A stretch of DNA of 64,000 nt from an uncultured Caulobacterales bacterium (lineage in GTDB: Bacteria; Pseudomonadota; Alphaproteobacteria; Caulobacterales; Maricaulaceae): contig CALLIK010000004.1 in the NCBI GenBank assembly GCA_938009235.1, forward strand, positions 186,001-250,000, given 5' to 3'. A program made the position numbers and the translations under genes. Of this stretch, positions 8,149 through 14,719 are shown one piece after another; position 1 is the stretch's first letter; each line of letters starts with the position of its first letter. The notes under the pieces were generated by a model. That model was given only the letters and a program-made list of their open reading frames with translations, had not been told where the DNA came from and did not search any database.

Positions 8149-8367
8149 ATGCCACATTGGTCAGGACTTCTCATTATTGCTGTTGTTGCTTTGCTGATTT
8201 TCGGCAGAGGCGGAAAAATTTCGTCTATCATGGGCGATATGGGCAAGGGCATCAGCTCTTTCCGTAAGGGCCTGAAAGACAATGTTGAAGACATGTCTGA
8301 TGCAGCTGATGACGCACTTGATGTCACACCAAAGGCGGAAGACGTTAAAGTAAAGAAAAAGCGCTAA
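8149..8367 (+). CDS. tatA: Sec-independent translocase subunit TatA
   Basis: Pore- or patch-forming subunit of the twin-arginine export system. The 72 residues comprise one N-terminal membrane helix, the FGRGG hinge, the amphipathic helix ([18 protein letters not shown]) and a charged tail ending KKKR. The start is supported by AAAGGA seven bases upstream. It leads a tatABC cluster; the same scpB-tatABC order is common in Caulobacterales and relatives. Confidence 0.95.
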
Positions 8368-8395
8368 GCTGACGTTGATAGAGGGCTGAGAGCCC

Positions 8396-8767
8396 ATGCT
8401 TCCTTCAATCGGATTTCCGGAGATGTTGGTGATTGTCCTTTTGGCGATCATCTTTGTCGGTCCTAAAGACTTGCCTTCCCTCATGCGGACCATGGGGCAA
8501 TGGATGGCACGTGTTCGTTCCTTGGGGAATGAATTTAAATCCGCATTTGATGACATGGATGTTGACGGTGAAGTCGCAGCTATTCGACGTGAAATCGAGC
8601 AAATGAAAGATCTTGGCAAGCTTGACCCTGAGCTGGATAGTGAAATGAAAGCCTTGAATGCTGAATTGCGCGAGGCCACGGATATGTCGTCGCCTCATAC
8701 GCCAAGTGCACCTAAGTCAGATAAACATAAGCCTCATGCATCCAAAGGTGACGTAGCGGATGACTGA
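8396..8767 (+). CDS. tatB: Sec-independent translocase subunit TatB
   Basis: With TatC forms the receptor that recognises twin-arginine signal peptides. It has the TatB N terminus (MLPSIGFPEMLVIVLLAIIFVGP), the Pro-Glu pair typical of TatB, a long amphipathic helix and a Ser/Pro/His-rich disordered tail. Its 123 residues and this N terminus separate it from TatA. Its stop overlaps the tatC start by eight bases, so translation is probably coupled. Confidence 0.94.
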   Translation: MLPSIGFPEMLVIVLLAIIFVGPKDLPSLMRTMGQWMARVRSLGNEFKSAFDDMDVDGEVAAIRREIEQMKDLGKLDPELDSEMKALNAELREATDMSSPHTPSAPKSDKHKPHASKGDVADD

Positions 8768-9593
8768 AAAACTTGAACAAGCAGATGAAGTATCGTCAAG
8801 TGAGGCTCCGCTGCTGGATCACTTGCTAGAGCTACGAACTCGCCTGATAAAAATGTGCGTGGCTTTACTGGTGGGTTGCATTGTCTGTGCGCCATTCTTG
8901 CGCCAAATTATTGCCTTTCTCATGCGTCCTTTTGAAGTCGCGCTGATTCGGTACAATATTGGCCTGGCTGAAAAGGGTCTGACACCTATCGATTTGGGAT
9001 TAATTGCAACGCATCCGCTTGAGACATTTTTTGTCAAAATGAAAATTGCGCTTTTTGGCGGTGTGATTTTGGCATTCCCAATTATTGCCTACCAGCTCTA
9101 CAGATTTATCGCGCCAGGCCTTTATAAGACTGAGCGCGGCGTTTTCTTACCTTACTTGATCCTTTCACCCGTTCTATTCGTCATGGGGTCTACTCTCGTT
9201 TTTCTGTTTGTTTTCCCTTTTGTGATGGAGTTCGCGCTGAACCAACAAAGTTTAGGGTCGGGCGGCGAAACAATTGAATTGATGACGAAGGTGAGTGATT
9301 ATTTATCTCTCTCTATGGTGTTGTTTTTAGCGTTTGGTCTCGCATTTCAGTTGCCAGTAGTGCTGACGCTGCTCGCGAGAATTGGGATTGTGACAGCGCA
9401 GGGGCTGAAAAACAGCCGGAAGTATGCTGTGTTAGGAATTGCTGTTTTTGCAGCCTTCGCCACGCCGCCTGATCCGATAACGCAGTTCATTTTGGGCGGG
9501 GCGATTTATCTACTCTATGAGATTTCAATCTTGGCGGTTGTTGTGTTGCAACGGCCAAAGGTAAAAGTGCAGCCCAAAAGCGAAGAGCTATAA
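8760..9593 (+). CDS. tatC: Sec-independent translocase subunit TatC
   Basis: Polytopic core of the twin-arginine receptor. Six membrane helices can be traced. Conserved signatures include LLDHLLELRTRLI at the N terminus, ETFFVKMKIALFGG, the segment FIAPGLYKTER, and FATPPDPITQFILGGAIYLLYE near the C terminus; acidic residues at the signal-peptide site (the E of HLLELR) are retained. The 277 residues are normal. A likely client in this window is the M48 lipoprotein near 40.5 kb, which carries an RR-containing signal. Confidence 0.96.
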   Translation: MTEKLEQADEVSSSEAPLLDHLLELRTRLIKMCVALLVGCIVCAPFLRQIIAFLMRPFEVALIRYNIGLAEKGLTPIDLGLIATHPLETFFVKMKIALFGGVILAFPIIAYQLYRFIAPGLYKTERGVFLPYLILSPVLFVMGSTLVFLFVFPFVMEFALNQQSLGSGGETIELMTKVSDYLSLSMVLFLAFGLAFQLPVVLTLLARIGIVTAQGLKNSRKYAVLGIAVFAAFATPPDPITQFILGGAIYLLYEISILAVVVLQRPKVKVQPKSEEL

Positions 9594-10689: not shown

Positions 10690-11013
10690 ATGATCACTCT
10701 TATCCAACAAACTGCACCAAGCGCTAGTGGTTCTATTATGAACTCGTTGCTGCTCTTTGGTCCGCTGATCCTTATCTTTTATTTTTTGATCCTGCGTCCA
10801 CAAAGCCAACAGGCTAAGAAGCACAAGACTATGGTCGCCGAACTTCAAAAAAATGACGAGATCATCACGCGCGGCGGCATTATTGGTAAAATCAAAAAAG
10901 TTAGCGAAGACGAGCTAACGATTACGTCCGGTACATCCGAAATCAAAGTGGCGCGGTCCATGGTTGCGGCCAAGCATGATCGTACAGCTGCAAATGATGC
11001 AGGCAAAGCCTAG
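10690..11013 (+). CDS. yajC: Preprotein translocase subunit YajC
   Basis: Small accessory membrane protein of the SecDF complex. The 107 residues contain one membrane segment (SLLLFGPLILIFYFLILRP), then the conserved RPQSQQAKKHKTMVAEL and DEIITRGGIIGKI. It is first in a yajC-secD-secF cluster, with secD 39 bases downstream. A pair of GTTAAC hexamers lies just after the LysM gene stop in the preceding gap; no promoter could be assigned with confidence. Confidence 0.96.
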   Translation: MITLIQQTAPSASGSIMNSLLLFGPLILIFYFLILRPQSQQAKKHKTMVAELQKNDEIITRGGIIGKIKKVSEDELTITSGTSEIKVARSMVAAKHDRTAANDAGKA

Positions 11014-11052
11014 TTCCTAACCTCTTAAACCCTCGCCTAAAGGCTAGAGTAT

Positions 11053-12684
11053 ATGCTGTTCTTCTCTCGATCTAAGATTTTCATGATTTTCGGTGCAGTC
11101 TTTTTGGGACTGCTCCTCGCCATTCCAAATGTGCTGAGCGAAGAGCAGCGCGAGAATATGCCAGGTGCGTTCTCGCGGTCCATTAACTTGGGTCTCGATC
11201 TTCAAGGTGGCGCACATATGCTCCTCGAGGTCGATCTATCCTCCATCCTTAGTCAAGCTTTGGTGAATGAGCGTACAGGGATTAATGATGCGTTCCGCCG
11301 TGCTGATGATCGCCCGAGAACAGAATTTGTACGCGTGGATGGTAACTCCATTTTGGCGCGTATGCGGTCCAAAGAAGATGCAGATAAGGCGCTTCCGCTT
11401 CTTCAAGGGCTCTCTCAACCTATCGACCCGAGCCAGTTCGGCTCTTCAAATACAACGAAGGTATCACGCGAATCAGACCGCAATCTTCGCGTTATGATTA
11501 CGGATGAGAACATCGAATTCATAAGGAAGCAAACAATTGAAAAATCGATTGGTGTGCTACGTCGACGGATTGACCCAAATGGTAACCTTGAACTTACGCT
11601 AGCACCTGAAGGCGATAAGCGTATTTTGCTTCAAGTGCCTGGCGCGCAAAACATCGATGACATCAAAGACCGTATTAATAAATCGGCGAACCTCTCATTC
11701 CATCTTGTGAATGAGAAGGATTCTACGAATGAGCAAGCCATGAGCGTGGCGTATGAAACAGGCCGGGTGGCTGCGGGCGATACCTATTTTCCTTTTGCTG
11801 AAGCTAGTGGCCGTCGTGGTGGTTTGATTGTGACCGAGCGCACGCGAATAACGGGTGACTGTTTGAAAAATTCCTCAGCGGGGCCGCATCCAGAATCTAG
11901 CGGTGCGATTGTGAACTTTTCCTTCAACGTGGCCTGCGCCACGGAATTTGGCCGTATGACGGCTAGAAACATCAACAAGCGCTTTGCGGTTGTGTTGGAT
12001 AAAGAGATTGTTACGGCACCGAATATTAGGTCTGCTATTACGGGCGGCTCTGGATATATTGAAGGAGGCTTCACGATGGAGTCAGCCCGCGATTTGTCCC
12101 TTCTTTTGAATGCAGGTGCATTGCCTGCTAAATTGACGATTGTCGAAGAACGCACAGTCGACCCATCTCTTGGTGCTGACTCGATCCGCGCAGGTAAGGT
12201 GGCTTCGGGTATTGGCCTTCTAGGTGTCGCGATCTTCATGTGGCTGAGTTATGGGTTGCGTTTTGGTACAATAGCTAACTTGGCGCTGTCTACGAACATC
12301 ATTCTTATCGCGGCGGCCTTGTCGCTGTTCGGTTCAACGCTGACACTTCCGGGTATTGCGGGTATCATCCTTACGATTGGTATGGCGGTTGATGCCAATG
12401 TGCTGATCTTCGAACGTATTCGGGAAGAAACTTATAATGGGAAGACGCCGATCAATGCGATTGAGACAGGCTATAAGCTCTCAATGGCGCCTATCCTTGA
12501 TGCGAACATCACGACGATGATCGCGGCGATTACGCTATACTTTGTTGGGTCAGGTCCTGTTCGCGGCTTTGCGGTGACATTGGCCATTGGTATTGTTATG
12601 TCGGTCTTCACCGCTGTGATCTTTGCTCGCTTGCTGACAGCCACATGGCTGCGCGGTAAACGCCCTAAAACACTTCCGATTTAG
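11053..12684 (+). CDS. secD: Protein translocase subunit SecD
   Basis: Inner-membrane RND-type subunit that uses the proton motive force to pull proteins through the Sec channel. One N-terminal membrane helix precedes the motif GLDLQGGAHMLLEVD, a large periplasmic P1 domain, and five C-terminal helices containing GIAGIILTIGMAVDANVLIFERIREE. The 543 residues agree with alphaproteobacterial SecD. secF follows after 13 bases, so they form one operon with yajC. Confidence 0.97.
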   Translation: MLFFSRSKIFMIFGAVFLGLLLAIPNVLSEEQRENMPGAFSRSINLGLDLQGGAHMLLEVDLSSILSQALVNERTGINDAFRRADDRPRTEFVRVDGNSILARMRSKEDADKALPLLQGLSQPIDPSQFGSSNTTKVSRESDRNLRVMITDENIEFIRKQTIEKSIGVLRRRIDPNGNLELTLAPEGDKRILLQVPGAQNIDDIKDRINKSANLSFHLVNEKDSTNEQAMSVAYETGRVAAGDTYFPFAEASGRRGGLIVTERTRITGDCLKNSSAGPHPESSGAIVNFSFNVACATEFGRMTARNINKRFAVVLDKEIVTAPNIRSAITGGSGYIEGGFTMESARDLSLLLNAGALPAKLTIVEERTVDPSLGADSIRAGKVASGIGLLGVAIFMWLSYGLRFGTIANLALSTNIILIAAALSLFGSTLTLPGIAGIILTIGMAVDANVLIFERIREETYNGKTPINAIETGYKLSMAPILDANITTMIAAITLYFVGSGPVRGFAVTLAIGIVMSVFTAVIFARLLTATWLRGKRPKTLPI

Positions 12685-12697
12685 TAGGACTGATAAG

Positions 12698-13693
12698 ATG
12701 AAAGATATCTCACTCGTCCGCATCCTGCCACAGGAACCGCGCGTCCCCTTTATCAAACTCCGCGTCATTGCTGCGATCTTGTCCGTCATTGCGGTCATCG
12801 CATCGGCTGTCTTGTTTTCGACAAAGGGCTTGAATTACGGCATCGACTTTACGGGCGGTACAGTGATCGAAATCGGTTCTGTGACGCAAGAATTGGATGA
12901 CGCCGAAATTCGTTCTGCACTCAAGGAAATGGGATATGCCAGCGCAACAGTTCAAGGTATTCAACCGCCAGAAGGGTCTAAGACCAAAGAGGGCGTCCCG
13001 ATTGAGAACCGTTTGATCCGTATCGGTCTGCAATTGCAGGACGAGTCTGGTGAAGAAGGTCAAGGCGCACAACAAGCGGCGCTGATTAAAGTGAAAACTG
13101 AGCTCACAACACGTATAGGCGATTACTTCGTGCGAAATACAGAAGTCGTCGGGTCACAAGTCTCTGGAGAACTTCGTAAGAAGGGTCTTATGTCTGTTGG
13201 TTTGGCGCTATTCTTTGTATTGGCATATATCTGGTTCCGATTTGAATGGCAGTTTGGCATGGGCGCAGTTTTGGCCTTGGCGCATGACGTGGTCTTGACC
13301 ATTGGTGTGTTCAGCCTGACGGGGATCGAATTTAACTTAACGATTATAGCGGCTATTTTGACCATAGTGGGCTACTCGCTGAACGATACAGTGATTGTTT
13401 ATGACCGTATTCGCGAGAACCTGCGGAAGTTTAAGCGCAAGCCTTTGGGTGAAGTTCTGAATATCTCGATCAATGATACATTGTCTCGGACAATTTTGAC
13501 ATCTGTGACTACGCTTTTGGCGTTGGTTGCGCTTTATGTCCTCGGCGGATCTGCCTTGAAAGGCTTCTCTTTCGCGATGATCTGGGGCGTATTTGTTGGG
13601 ACCTATTCCTCCATCTTCGTGGCTTCGCCATTGCTGATGGCGCTTAAACTTAAGCGCGGTGCGAATACAGGCGGCGAACGCGCAGACGCTTAA
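12698..13693 (+). CDS. secF: Protein translocase subunit SecF
   Basis: Partner of SecD. The family motif GIDFTGGTVIE follows the first membrane helix; the transmembrane core contains VGYSLNDTVIVYDRIREN, with the Asp used in proton coupling. 331 residues, separate from SecD rather than fused. In many relatives a Mth938-like gene and a squalene/phytoene synthase gene follow secF; here a reverse-strand nickel superoxide dismutase operon lies between secF and the synthase-like gene. Confidence 0.97.
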   Translation: MKDISLVRILPQEPRVPFIKLRVIAAILSVIAVIASAVLFSTKGLNYGIDFTGGTVIEIGSVTQELDDAEIRSALKEMGYASATVQGIQPPEGSKTKEGVPIENRLIRIGLQLQDESGEEGQGAQQAALIKVKTELTTRIGDYFVRNTEVVGSQVSGELRKKGLMSVGLALFFVLAYIWFRFEWQFGMGAVLALAHDVVLTIGVFSLTGIEFNLTIIAAILTIVGYSLNDTVIVYDRIRENLRKFKRKPLGEVLNISINDTLSRTILTSVTTLLALVALYVLGGSALKGFSFAMIWGVFVGTYSSIFVASPLLMALKLKRGANTGGERADA

Positions 13694-13714: not shown

Positions 13715-14020
13715 CTACAGCCGTTTTACGCCCTTGGGCGTAATGGCGAACCTCGCGCGGCCTTTTACTAAGGCTAATGGAACATCGCCCATTGCGGCGG
13801 TGTCTGTGCTCTCAGGGCCATCACCTTCCAATTGTAAGCTATCGCCGTTTATGGATTTGACGCGTTTGACGATCACGCCAAACTTTGGGTGATCTACCAC
13901 AACGACAAAGCCCGACCGCAGAGACTGACTCCACGACCGGGCTTTGGTAAGTATCAGATAATCGCCAGGTGACAGCGTAGGGCGCATAGACGCCCCACGT
14001 ATCTTGACAATTTTAATCAC
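13715..14020 (-). CDS. sodX: Nickel-type superoxide dismutase maturation protease
   Basis: Small signal-peptidase-like (S24/S26) enzyme that removes the SodN propeptide so that the new N-terminal histidine can bind nickel. The 101 residues show the Ser/Lys dyad: S11 in GASMRPTLSPGD and K52 in GVIVKRV, followed by the substrate-groove strand and EGDGPESTDT. Unlike leader peptidase it has no membrane anchor, as expected for a cytoplasmic maturase. The GTG start shares one base with the sodN stop (TAGTG), so the two are translationally coupled. Assignment rests on the motif plus position next to sodN. Confidence 0.92.
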   Translation of the reverse strand: MIKIVKIRGASMRPTLSPGDYLILTKARSWSQSLRSGFVVVVDHPKFGVIVKRVKSINGDSLQLEGDGPESTDTAAMGDVPLALVKGRARFAITPKGVKRL

Positions 14021-14511
14021 TATAGAACAGGTTCAACAACTTCGACGTTTGGCGCGTAAGGTGTTGTGACTTTTTTCGTCTTCACGCCTTTTGACGCCCA
14101 GAACATTTCTGCGAACTGGTTGGCTAGGTCGACAAGTTTGAGGCCGTCTTCACGGTGCAAGTCTTGCTTTACCGCAGAACCCGCAAGCATGATGCCATGT
14201 GCAAGGTCATGTGCTTTGGCCATGTCTTCTTGGTTCTTTGGCTTCATGAAGTCGCCCCAGATGATGCGAGTTTCGTGCTTACACTTTTCAGCCATTTCTT
14301 CTTTTTTGGCTGTGTTACGTGCGACCTGCATGGCGAACCCTGTTTCGGATAGGCCTTTGTCTTTTAGGCTAAGCAGGATGTCCATTTGGCGAAGCGCAGA
14401 GACGGCGTAGTAAGTTACGACGCGAGCGTCATAGATACCGCAAGGGATGTCGCAATGCGCGTCAACGGTTTCAATTTTAGAATCGAAGCTAGAGAGTAGT
14501 GTATGTAACAT
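14020..14511 (-). CDS. sodN: Nickel superoxide dismutase (pro-form)
   Basis: Converts superoxide to peroxide and oxygen with a nickel centre, in the cytoplasm. The diagnostic nickel hook HCDIPCGIY begins at H19, giving His1, Cys2, Cys6 and Tyr9 of the mature enzyme after removal of an 18-residue propeptide. The rest is the expected four-helix bundle (RQMDILLSLKDKGL, ETRIIWGDFMKP, DLAHGIMLAGSAVKQD). The mature chain is about 145 residues, longer at the C terminus than the 117 of Streptomyces. The frame is open upstream, but the ATG after AAGGA, nine bases beyond the preceding stop, is the natural start. sodX follows with a one-base overlap. Confidence 0.96.
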   Translation of the reverse strand: MLHTLLSSFDSKIETVDAHCDIPCGIYDARVVTYYAVSALRQMDILLSLKDKGLSETGFAMQVARNTAKKEEMAEKCKHETRIIWGDFMKPKNQEDMAKAHDLAHGIMLAGSAVKQDLHREDGLKLVDLANQFAEMFWASKGVKTKKVTTPYAPNVEVVEPVL

Positions 14512-14521
14512 GGTGTGTTCC

Positions 14522-14719
14522 TTAAGCTTTGCGACGACGAAAATAGACAGCAGCGCCAACAACAGCTGCAAGCGCGATAAATGTACCTGCGCTATGGACT
14601 GGGCTGGAGAGCCAATGTGCGATTTCTGTCATAACGCTTTGGCCATGCGCGCCAGTGTGAGCAGACGCAGTGCCTGCGAGGAGTAGGGCCGCGGCCCCAG
14701 TGAGAAGTGTACGTGTCAT
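14522..14719 (-). CDS. Small membrane protein with His-containing exported segment, first gene of sodN-sodX operon
   Basis: A 65-residue protein: a clear Sec signal (TRTLLTGAAALLLAGTASA), a short exported segment with four histidines (HTGAHGQ, AHW, PVHSAG), one membrane helix (GTFIALAAVVGAAVYF) and an RRRKA end. The frame is open further upstream, but this ATG places the signal at the N terminus. The stop lies ten bases before the sodN ATG, so the three genes look like one transcript. The H-x-G-x-H start after the signal recalls the N terminus of HupE/UreJ nickel permeases and of DUF6732-type small proteins, but the rest of a permease is missing. A metal-related role is an inference from context only. 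Confidence 0.75.
   Translation of the reverse strand: MTRTLLTGAAALLLAGTASAHTGAHGQSVMTEIAHWLSSPVHSAGTFIALAAVVGAAVYFRRRKA

Follow-up and report, generated by a model that had tools for sequence, protein, structure and literature searches.

A small single-helix protein encoded directly before sodN has homologues at hydrogenase and urease genes and may assist nickel supply

We analysed a 64,000-nucleotide stretch of DNA from an uncultured bacterium of the Caulobacterales (hereafter, the window), in which the genes for nickel superoxide dismutase (NiSOD) and its maturation protease, sodN and sodX, are preceded by a small open reading frame (ORF). This ORF encodes 65 amino acids without an internal stop, and its product reads MTRTLLTGAAALLLAGTASA followed by HTGAHGQSVMTEIAHWLSSPVHSAGTFIALAAVVGAAVYFRRRKA. 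As shown in Table 1, the protein consists of a signal peptide, a short exported segment, one membrane helix and a basic end; all four histidines (residues 21, 25, 35 and 42) are located in the exported segment. The cleavage site and the topology were assigned by inspection, and the basic end was placed in the cytoplasm according to the positive-inside rule. An AlphaFold2 model based on an alignment of 25 sequences (mean pLDDT 75.9, pTM 0.43) contains helices at residues 2-22, 29-38 and 40-64. Therefore, H35 and H42 are predicted to flank a Ser39-Pro40 break where the membrane helix starts. The first-pass annotation of this DNA had described the same anatomy, ten bases between the stop codon and the sodN ATG, and an overlap of sodN with sodX. 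Translation and inspection confirmed these points, and the overlap is a single base (14020).

Table 1. Features of the sodN locus in the window (positions are those of the window)
Feature	Position	Strand	Basis
Small-protein gene (65 aa)	14522..14719	-	Translation; A1 profile E 1.1e-26 (the window copy is itself a row of A1); dN/dS
Stop codon of the small gene	14522-14524	-	Sequence
Signal peptide, codons 1-20, end A-S-A	14660..14719	-	Inspection; AlphaFold2 helix 2-22
Exported segment HTGAHGQSVMTEIAHWLSSPVH, codons 21-42, with H21, H25, H35 and H42	14594..14659	-	Alignments A1 and A4
Membrane helix, codons 43-60	14540..14593	-	Hydrophobicity by inspection; AlphaFold2 helix 40-64
Basic end RRRKA, codons 61-65, probably cytoplasmic	14525..14539	-	Sequence; positive-inside rule
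10-base gap between the small gene and sodN	14512..14521	-	Inspection
sodN, Ni superoxide dismutase precursor	14020..14511 (ATG 14509-14511)	-	PF09055, TIGR02753
sodX, NiSOD maturation protease, GTG start	13715..14020	-	PF10502 and PF00717 over cut-off; TIGR02754 below cut-off

SodN has an 18-residue pro-peptide followed by HCDIPCG, and it matches PF09055 (E 2.3e-30) and TIGR02753 (112.4 bits, cut-off 90). By inspection, sodN has an AAGGA-like ribosome-binding site that shares bases with the stop codon of the preceding gene. SodX matches the Peptidase_S26/S24 models over their cut-offs and scores 52.2 bits against TIGR02754, under the cut-off of 63.25. SodX has only 101 amino acids and no obvious membrane anchor, and with these features automatic annotation would probably leave it unnamed. 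From their spacing alone, we infer that the small gene, sodN and sodX are co-transcribed. Beyond sodX, at 8149-9593 and 10690-13693, there are genes that read as tatA, tatB, tatC, yajC and secD, together with secF (PF02355). Their proximity is probably a coincidence, though it is of note for the idea of an export-linked leader (see below).

The small protein is under protein-level selection. When the window copy was compared with those of four relatives, dN/dS was 0.043-0.209, and the comparison with Litorimonas gave 29 synonymous and 6 non-synonymous changes. The four histidines are constant across these five sequences, and their codons switch between CAC and CAT. We also defined a rule for the locus, namely an ORF directly before sodN that encodes a signal peptide, one transmembrane segment, a basic tail and at least two histidines, and applied it to 80 named sodN loci, the best among at least 566 confirmed ones, with 14,562 positions within those loci as controls. 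Such an ORF was found at 34 of these best 80 of at least 566 loci and at 16 of the 14,562 control positions; when the histidine condition was omitted, the numbers were 38 of the 80 and 143 of 14,562, respectively. Four of the positives (L175, L183, L196 and L221) are spurious or of different architecture, and one true member (L160, profile E 4e-16) is missed by the rule and counted among the 46 of the best 80 loci that fail it.

These results bear on the reading that the gene is a chance ORF or a TrbC/VirB2-type pilin (PF04956), which we regard as hardly credible. The chance ORF was rejected on the basis of dN/dS (0.04-0.21), the fixed place before sodN and the rule test against controls. As for the pilin, 11 of 29 family members match PF04956 at E 0.01 (best 1.5e-5), and the window protein scores 17.4 bits; two members scored singly (17.4 and 23.2 bits) stay under the cut-off of 27.9. 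The pilin was rejected because the scores are weak and there is no such gene context in the window.

Linkage to sodN was examined in a sample of 137 genomes from 19 genera of the window's taxonomic family, 46 of which contain sodN. Profile A1, composed of 15 sodN-linked rows that all come from this family, gave 64 match rows, 41 of them strong (E up to 1.9e-10); among the 23 weaker rows, the context was read for G527 and G533. All 41 strong matches abut sodN, an adjacency that holds by construction for 15 of them, while the other 26 come from genomes that gave no row to A1. They occur once per genome, in 41 of the 46 sodN genomes, and 39-76 bases separate the matched stretches of the small gene and sodN. 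The possibility, raised by the first-pass annotation, that homologues would lie mostly away from sodN is thus not borne out within the family. Five sodN genomes gave no strong match. Three of them (L131, L141 and L143) carry a divergent ORF for a signal peptide and a helix, 7 bp before sodN. In the other two, which belong to the same genus (L006 and L137), a larger gene, AlkB-like by reading, replaces the small ORF.

Positives by the rule or the profiles include Hellea, Litorimonas, Algimonas and Robiginitomaculum; Marinomonas, Psychromonas, Hahella, Oceanobacter, Methylophaga and SAR86 among the gammaproteobacteria, where the small gene also lies before sodN, and Pseudobacteriovorax. Among the best 80 of at least 566 sodN loci, no ORF satisfying the rule was found at those from Chloroflexi, cyanobacteria, Sulfurospirillum, Sulfurovum and Arcobacter, or at several from alphaproteobacteria, such as Henriciella and Rhodovibrionaceae. 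Because 46 of these 80 loci fail the rule, NiSOD has no general need of the small protein. At four loci from SAR86 and an uncultured gammaproteobacterium (L202, L207, L209 and L227), a divergent version, SAHGEGI...HIHGES, is encoded directly before sodN; it is near or under the limit of profile detection.

Outside sodN loci, relatives of the small protein were found mainly at other nickel enzymes. In the window's taxonomic family, genomes without sodN gave two weak A1 matches (E 6e-5 and 1e-3): one copy lies 6 bases after the gene for a [NiFe]-hydrogenase large subunit (L147, PF00374 E 9e-235), and the other is beside the corresponding gene (L148). A search of 385 alphaproteobacterial genomes with A1 gave 34 rows, and six matches besides the window's own lie in open frames shorter than 110 amino acids. 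Their contexts were read for G246, G391, G154 and G184, with G188 and one of G087 left out. Three of these best four small matches are in urease clusters, between ureA and ureB (L150 and L152) or directly after ureG (L153); UreA, UreC and UreG were identified by Pfam and UreB by reading. The fourth (L151) has no known nickel neighbour. At this locus (L151:2984-3728), the small gene overlaps the end of a gene for an unnamed histidine-rich protein of 174 amino acids, which has no Pfam match over cut-off, and it faces a gene that reads as hemN-like.

We then used profile A4, whose 29 rows comprise 24 sodN-linked, three urease-linked, one hydrogenase-linked and one other sequence. Over 398 genomes of the phylum, A4 gave 91 rows, 16 in frames shorter than 110 amino acids, all of which were read, and 75 in longer ones. 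By raw counts, the 16 small matches are at sodN (four), urease (three; L269 and L276 are urease-linked copies), hydrogenase (one, L274) and cobalt- or B12-related genes (two), and the remainder are five from one genus and one judged false (G888). The context of G246 was taken from the alphaproteobacterial search above. The cobalt- or B12-related pair consists of a DUF6732 protein next to cbiX (L278) and a copy that lies, more loosely, near a B12-dependent ribonucleotide reductase. Four of the five one-genus copies (AHSGHGH...HWLLEFDH) directly follow tatC (L268, L270, L272 and L273; TatC by Pfam in L268), and no nickel enzyme was found within about 4 kb of these four; the fifth was assigned no place.

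Over 248 gammaproteobacterial genomes, of which at least three are common to the phylum set (G676, G546 and G558), A4 gave 28 rows; 12 are small, one (G1039, 44 amino acids, stops inside) was set aside, and 15 long ones are outside the context count. By raw counts, three of the 12 small matches are at sodN, eight at [NiFe]-hydrogenase genes and one elsewhere. Six of the eight directly follow the large-subunit gene, one is beside hypC and hypA, and one follows a HycI-type protease gene with a HypB-type gene nearby. Large subunits were identified by Pfam in L147, L342 and L351 and otherwise by BLAST to L147. The sodN-linked matches in this set depend on A4, which contains eight gammaproteobacterial sodN-linked rows; the hydrogenase matches are nearly independent of it, since its one hydrogenase-linked row is alphaproteobacterial.

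In a search of 23 sequences (L148 and L269 were outside the file), profiles built from sodN-linked copies alone still matched ten hydrogenase-linked and four urease-linked copies, with E values of 6e-4 to 7e-15 for A1 and 4e-7 to 3e-15 for A6. Thus, the nickel link is independent of the four such rows in A4. With the signal peptide removed, the sodN-linked and the other small proteins align at E 1e-15 with a score of 69.0, and the best of 100 column shuffles scored 16.1; they are clearly one family. H35 and H42 are invariant in all 29 rows of A4. The N-terminal histidine (H21) is variable (present in 12 of 15 A1 rows), and the H-x6-H spacing is missing in three members of the window's taxonomic family (L131, L141 and L143). 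In the wider searches many homologues are found outside sodN loci, most of them beside other nickel enzymes. This strengthens the nickel link and shows that the protein is not confined to sodN.

The genomic contexts can be weighed against a CutF/CruR-like leader, in which the nascent exported protein would sense periplasmic metal and its translation or stalling would control the translation of sodN. A short exported metal-motif protein encoded directly before its target, with the ribosome-binding site of sodN at its stop codon, is what such a leader would look like, and histidine-only CutF-like proteins with HupE/UreJ neighbours are described in the CutF paper (PMC9973294). At the start of sodN, however, no consistent stem-loop was found (26 sequences with a mean z of +0.56; a single one reached -2.4). 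The protein has no proline-rich end, is under protein-level selection, and gave no DUF2946 match (window protein at E 1, 29 members at E 0.01). Moreover, three copies are operon-terminal, L153 and L276 behind ureG and L351 behind the gene for a hydrogenase large subunit; the next gene is on the opposite strand, and thus these copies have nothing to lead. We consider the leader the serious rival, yet less likely than nickel capture and, on its own account, rather improbable.

When the longer A4 matches from the phylum were examined, HupE was the next family after the small proteins. Among the 48 best of the 75 long rows (E up to 8.5e-5; the other 27 lie outside the check), 43 are HupE, whose body was recognized in 41 by an HMM without the N terminus and in two by eye. 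Five have no HupE body (L245, with an unclear reading frame, L297, L298, L306 and L309). These are mostly other exported proteins matched through their signal peptide, and weak A4 matches therefore need care. Some alphaproteobacterial A1 matches were also read as HupE (G322, G320, G092, G220 and G100). The region matched in HupE comprises the signal peptide, the N-terminal histidine and the start of helix 1, and the H35-x6-H42 spacing of the window protein equals that of H36-H43 in the HupE alignment A5. The Asp of the helix-1 motif H-x5-D-H is absent from the window protein and present in 10 of 18 small relatives that are not linked to sodN.

At full length with the signal peptide, the small proteins align with HupE at E 2.3e-9. 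For the mature part, the set not linked to sodN gave E 1.3e-4 (score 27.4, best shuffle 19.1), the sodN-linked A1 was slightly above shuffles (15.4 versus 13.05), and the sodN-linked A6 was not above them (17.25 versus 17.27). PF04955 gave no match at E 1 for the window protein and matched one of 29 members (E 0.0059). A HupE motif was reportedly described by Brito et al. in 2010; the second motif, FHGxAHGxE, is found in A5 and is missing from the window protein, which has 65 amino acids and one helix after the signal peptide. The first-pass annotation had suggested that the protein resembles only the N terminus of HupE. This likeness was seen in the genome searches, but it is moderate without the signal peptide and, for the sodN-linked A6, at the level of shuffles. 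We use "mini-HupE" for this likeness, with common descent probable from the sequence comparisons; the small protein is not itself such a permease. At five other loci (L183, L193, L194, L231 and L050), the one-helix protein is replaced by ORFs of 123-141 amino acids with more hydrophobic stretches, located immediately ahead of sodN or close to it, and those of L183 and L050 start with the same AHPGH and H-x6-H. They are perhaps intermediates between mini-HupE and HupE.

HupE/UreJ proteins are encoded alongside nickel enzymes, and one HupE gene in our data (L063) adjoins a gene that reads as a HycI-like protease. The window genome itself encodes a HupE_UreJ_2 permease on contig C7 (L149:1658-2647, PF13795 E 2.7e-41); the N-terminal domain of this permease is exported and, in the predicted mature form, begins with His. 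With both Pfam families counted, HupE is over cut-off in 12 of 17 sodN-positive and 20 of 43 sodN-negative relatives. Its presence does not track sodN, and HupE as an obligate partner is not supported. In five genomes with both sodN and the small protein (G001, G003, G011, G016 and G022), no HupE or NicO was found; two of the five are 70-91% complete and two more 91-96%. Either another importer works there, or the small protein is more than an assistant. Five of the 46 sodN genomes, which belong to a single genus, have NicO over cut-off: the two without the small ORF and three of the other 44. Calculated by hand with kinship ignored, the probability of this coincidence is 5 x 4/(46 x 45), about 0.01. 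NicO as a replacement for the small protein is suggestive only.

These distributions could also be explained if single helices of the small protein assembled into an oligomer that is itself a minimal nickel channel and needs no permease partner. In NiSOD lineages without HupE and NicO, such an oligomer of N-terminal-His helices would be an ancestor or a descendant of HupE and would serve NiSOD, [NiFe]-hydrogenase and urease alike. The five genomes above, the NicO of both sodN genomes that lack such an ORF, and the resemblance of H-x6-H to HupE helix 1 are consistent with a channel, but four of those five genomes have the limited completeness just given. We regard this reading as very unlikely.

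A further alternative is that the small protein does not aid import but buffers nickel in the periplasm or membrane or helps to assemble the enzymes, or that it handles Co, Cu or Zn besides Ni. The cobalt- and B12-related copies (one of them a DUF6732 protein at 80 bits) point in this direction, as do the sodN genomes that have the small protein and neither HupE nor NicO. The Ang-1 domain, with an N-terminal His, prefers Cu2+ over Ni2+ (73.6 versus 220 nM; PMC12537917). On the other side, the contexts of the small protein are mostly nickel enzymes. NiSOD and urease mature in the cytoplasm, which periplasmic nickel is unable to reach without import. This alternative is unlikely as well, though we would not dismiss it lightly.

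The anatomy of the small protein, the selection on its amino acid sequence, its constant position before sodN and the homologues at other nickel enzymes are best explained if it is a stand-alone single-helix protein, like the N-terminal end of HupE/UreJ, that is made with NiSOD to secure its nickel. From the comparative sequence data we lean towards this reading, with somewhat better than even confidence. The small protein probably catches nickel outside the inner membrane and helps to feed NiSOD, hydrogenase and urease. A nickel-binding or import accessory, as previously suggested, fits the abutment to sodN and the hydrogenase and urease contexts. We propose that the precursor would be exported by Sec and cut by signal peptidase before His21, and that the mature protein of 45 amino acids would stay in the inner membrane with its N terminus outside and its C terminus inside. 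The free amino-terminal His and H25 may bind periplasmic Ni2+, and H35 and H42, on both sides of the Ser-Pro break at the helix mouth, may relay it to a permease such as the HupE_UreJ_2 of the window genome. Where neither HupE nor NicO was found, Ni2+ might instead be handed to a different importer, or it might pass through an oligomer that the small protein forms. Nickel would then reach cytoplasmic pro-SodN or, in other organisms, hydrogenase or urease. Against this reading speak the variable N-terminal His, the loss of H-x6-H in three members, the four tatC-linked copies and the confinement of the NicO pattern to one genus.

To our knowledge, no nickel chaperone that would deliver the metal to SodN is known. 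In many alpha- and gammaproteobacteria, the gene immediately ahead of sodN encodes this small conserved protein, which also has homologues at hydrogenase and urease genes. We read it as a stand-alone piece of HupE type that occupies a position of its own within the operons of nickel enzymes. We found no description of the small protein or of DUF6732 in the open-access literature, in agreement with its having been called undescribed. Pfam and NCBIfam scans of 29 members gave no model that clearly covers the family and no consistent NCBIfam match. Five matches to solved structures (PDB; E 0.14-0.62) were not meaningful, and a search of plasmids gave no match for either of two members, a sodN-linked one from a gammaproteobacterium and a urease-linked one.

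Several known systems can be compared with the small protein. HupE/UreJ (PF04955) shares the signal peptide, a mature N terminus of His-x-Gly and, where helix 1 begins, a pair of histidines spaced by seven residues, but it has about 190 amino acids and six to eight helices, as against 65 and one, and most sodN-linked small copies have no Asp before the second His. DUF6732 (PF20506) is likewise a small protein with a signal peptide, HxGH and a helix. The cbiX-linked copy (L278:3884-4114) matches it at 80 bits (cut-off 27), directly before cbiX in an apparent cobalamin-synthesis cluster; the window protein gave no match to it at E 1, and weak matches were found for three of the 29 members (best E 2.4e-4). 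It seems that DUF6732 is a sister type of the small protein, and its neighbourhood suggests that it handles cobalt. CbtB, a small subunit with one helix that belongs to a predicted cobalt importer, has a C-terminal His cluster and no signal peptide. It resembles the small protein in being small and single-helical, with a His cluster, and in working with a permease; its Pfam model matched none of the 29 members.

In cyanobacteria, the nickel-supply gene beside sodN, in the sodN-sodX cluster, is SodT/UreH (NicO) (PMC4284471), a six-helix permease unrelated to the small protein by length and sequence. The exported leaders of the CutF/CruR/CopL type are also small metal-motif proteins encoded directly upstream of a metal gene (PMC9973294), but the small protein has a membrane helix and lacks the Cys motif, the proline-rich end and a DUF2946 match, and no stem-loop was found. 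The Ang-1 "anglerase" HupE_UreJ_2 proteins have an exported N-terminal His as a metal ligand tied to a nickel permease (PMC12537917), and the permease of the window genome has a similar exported, His-starting N-terminal domain. In Ang-1 the domain is folded and forms one chain with the permease (PMC12537917), whereas the small protein carries its short flexible segment on a lone helix and is encoded with the enzyme.
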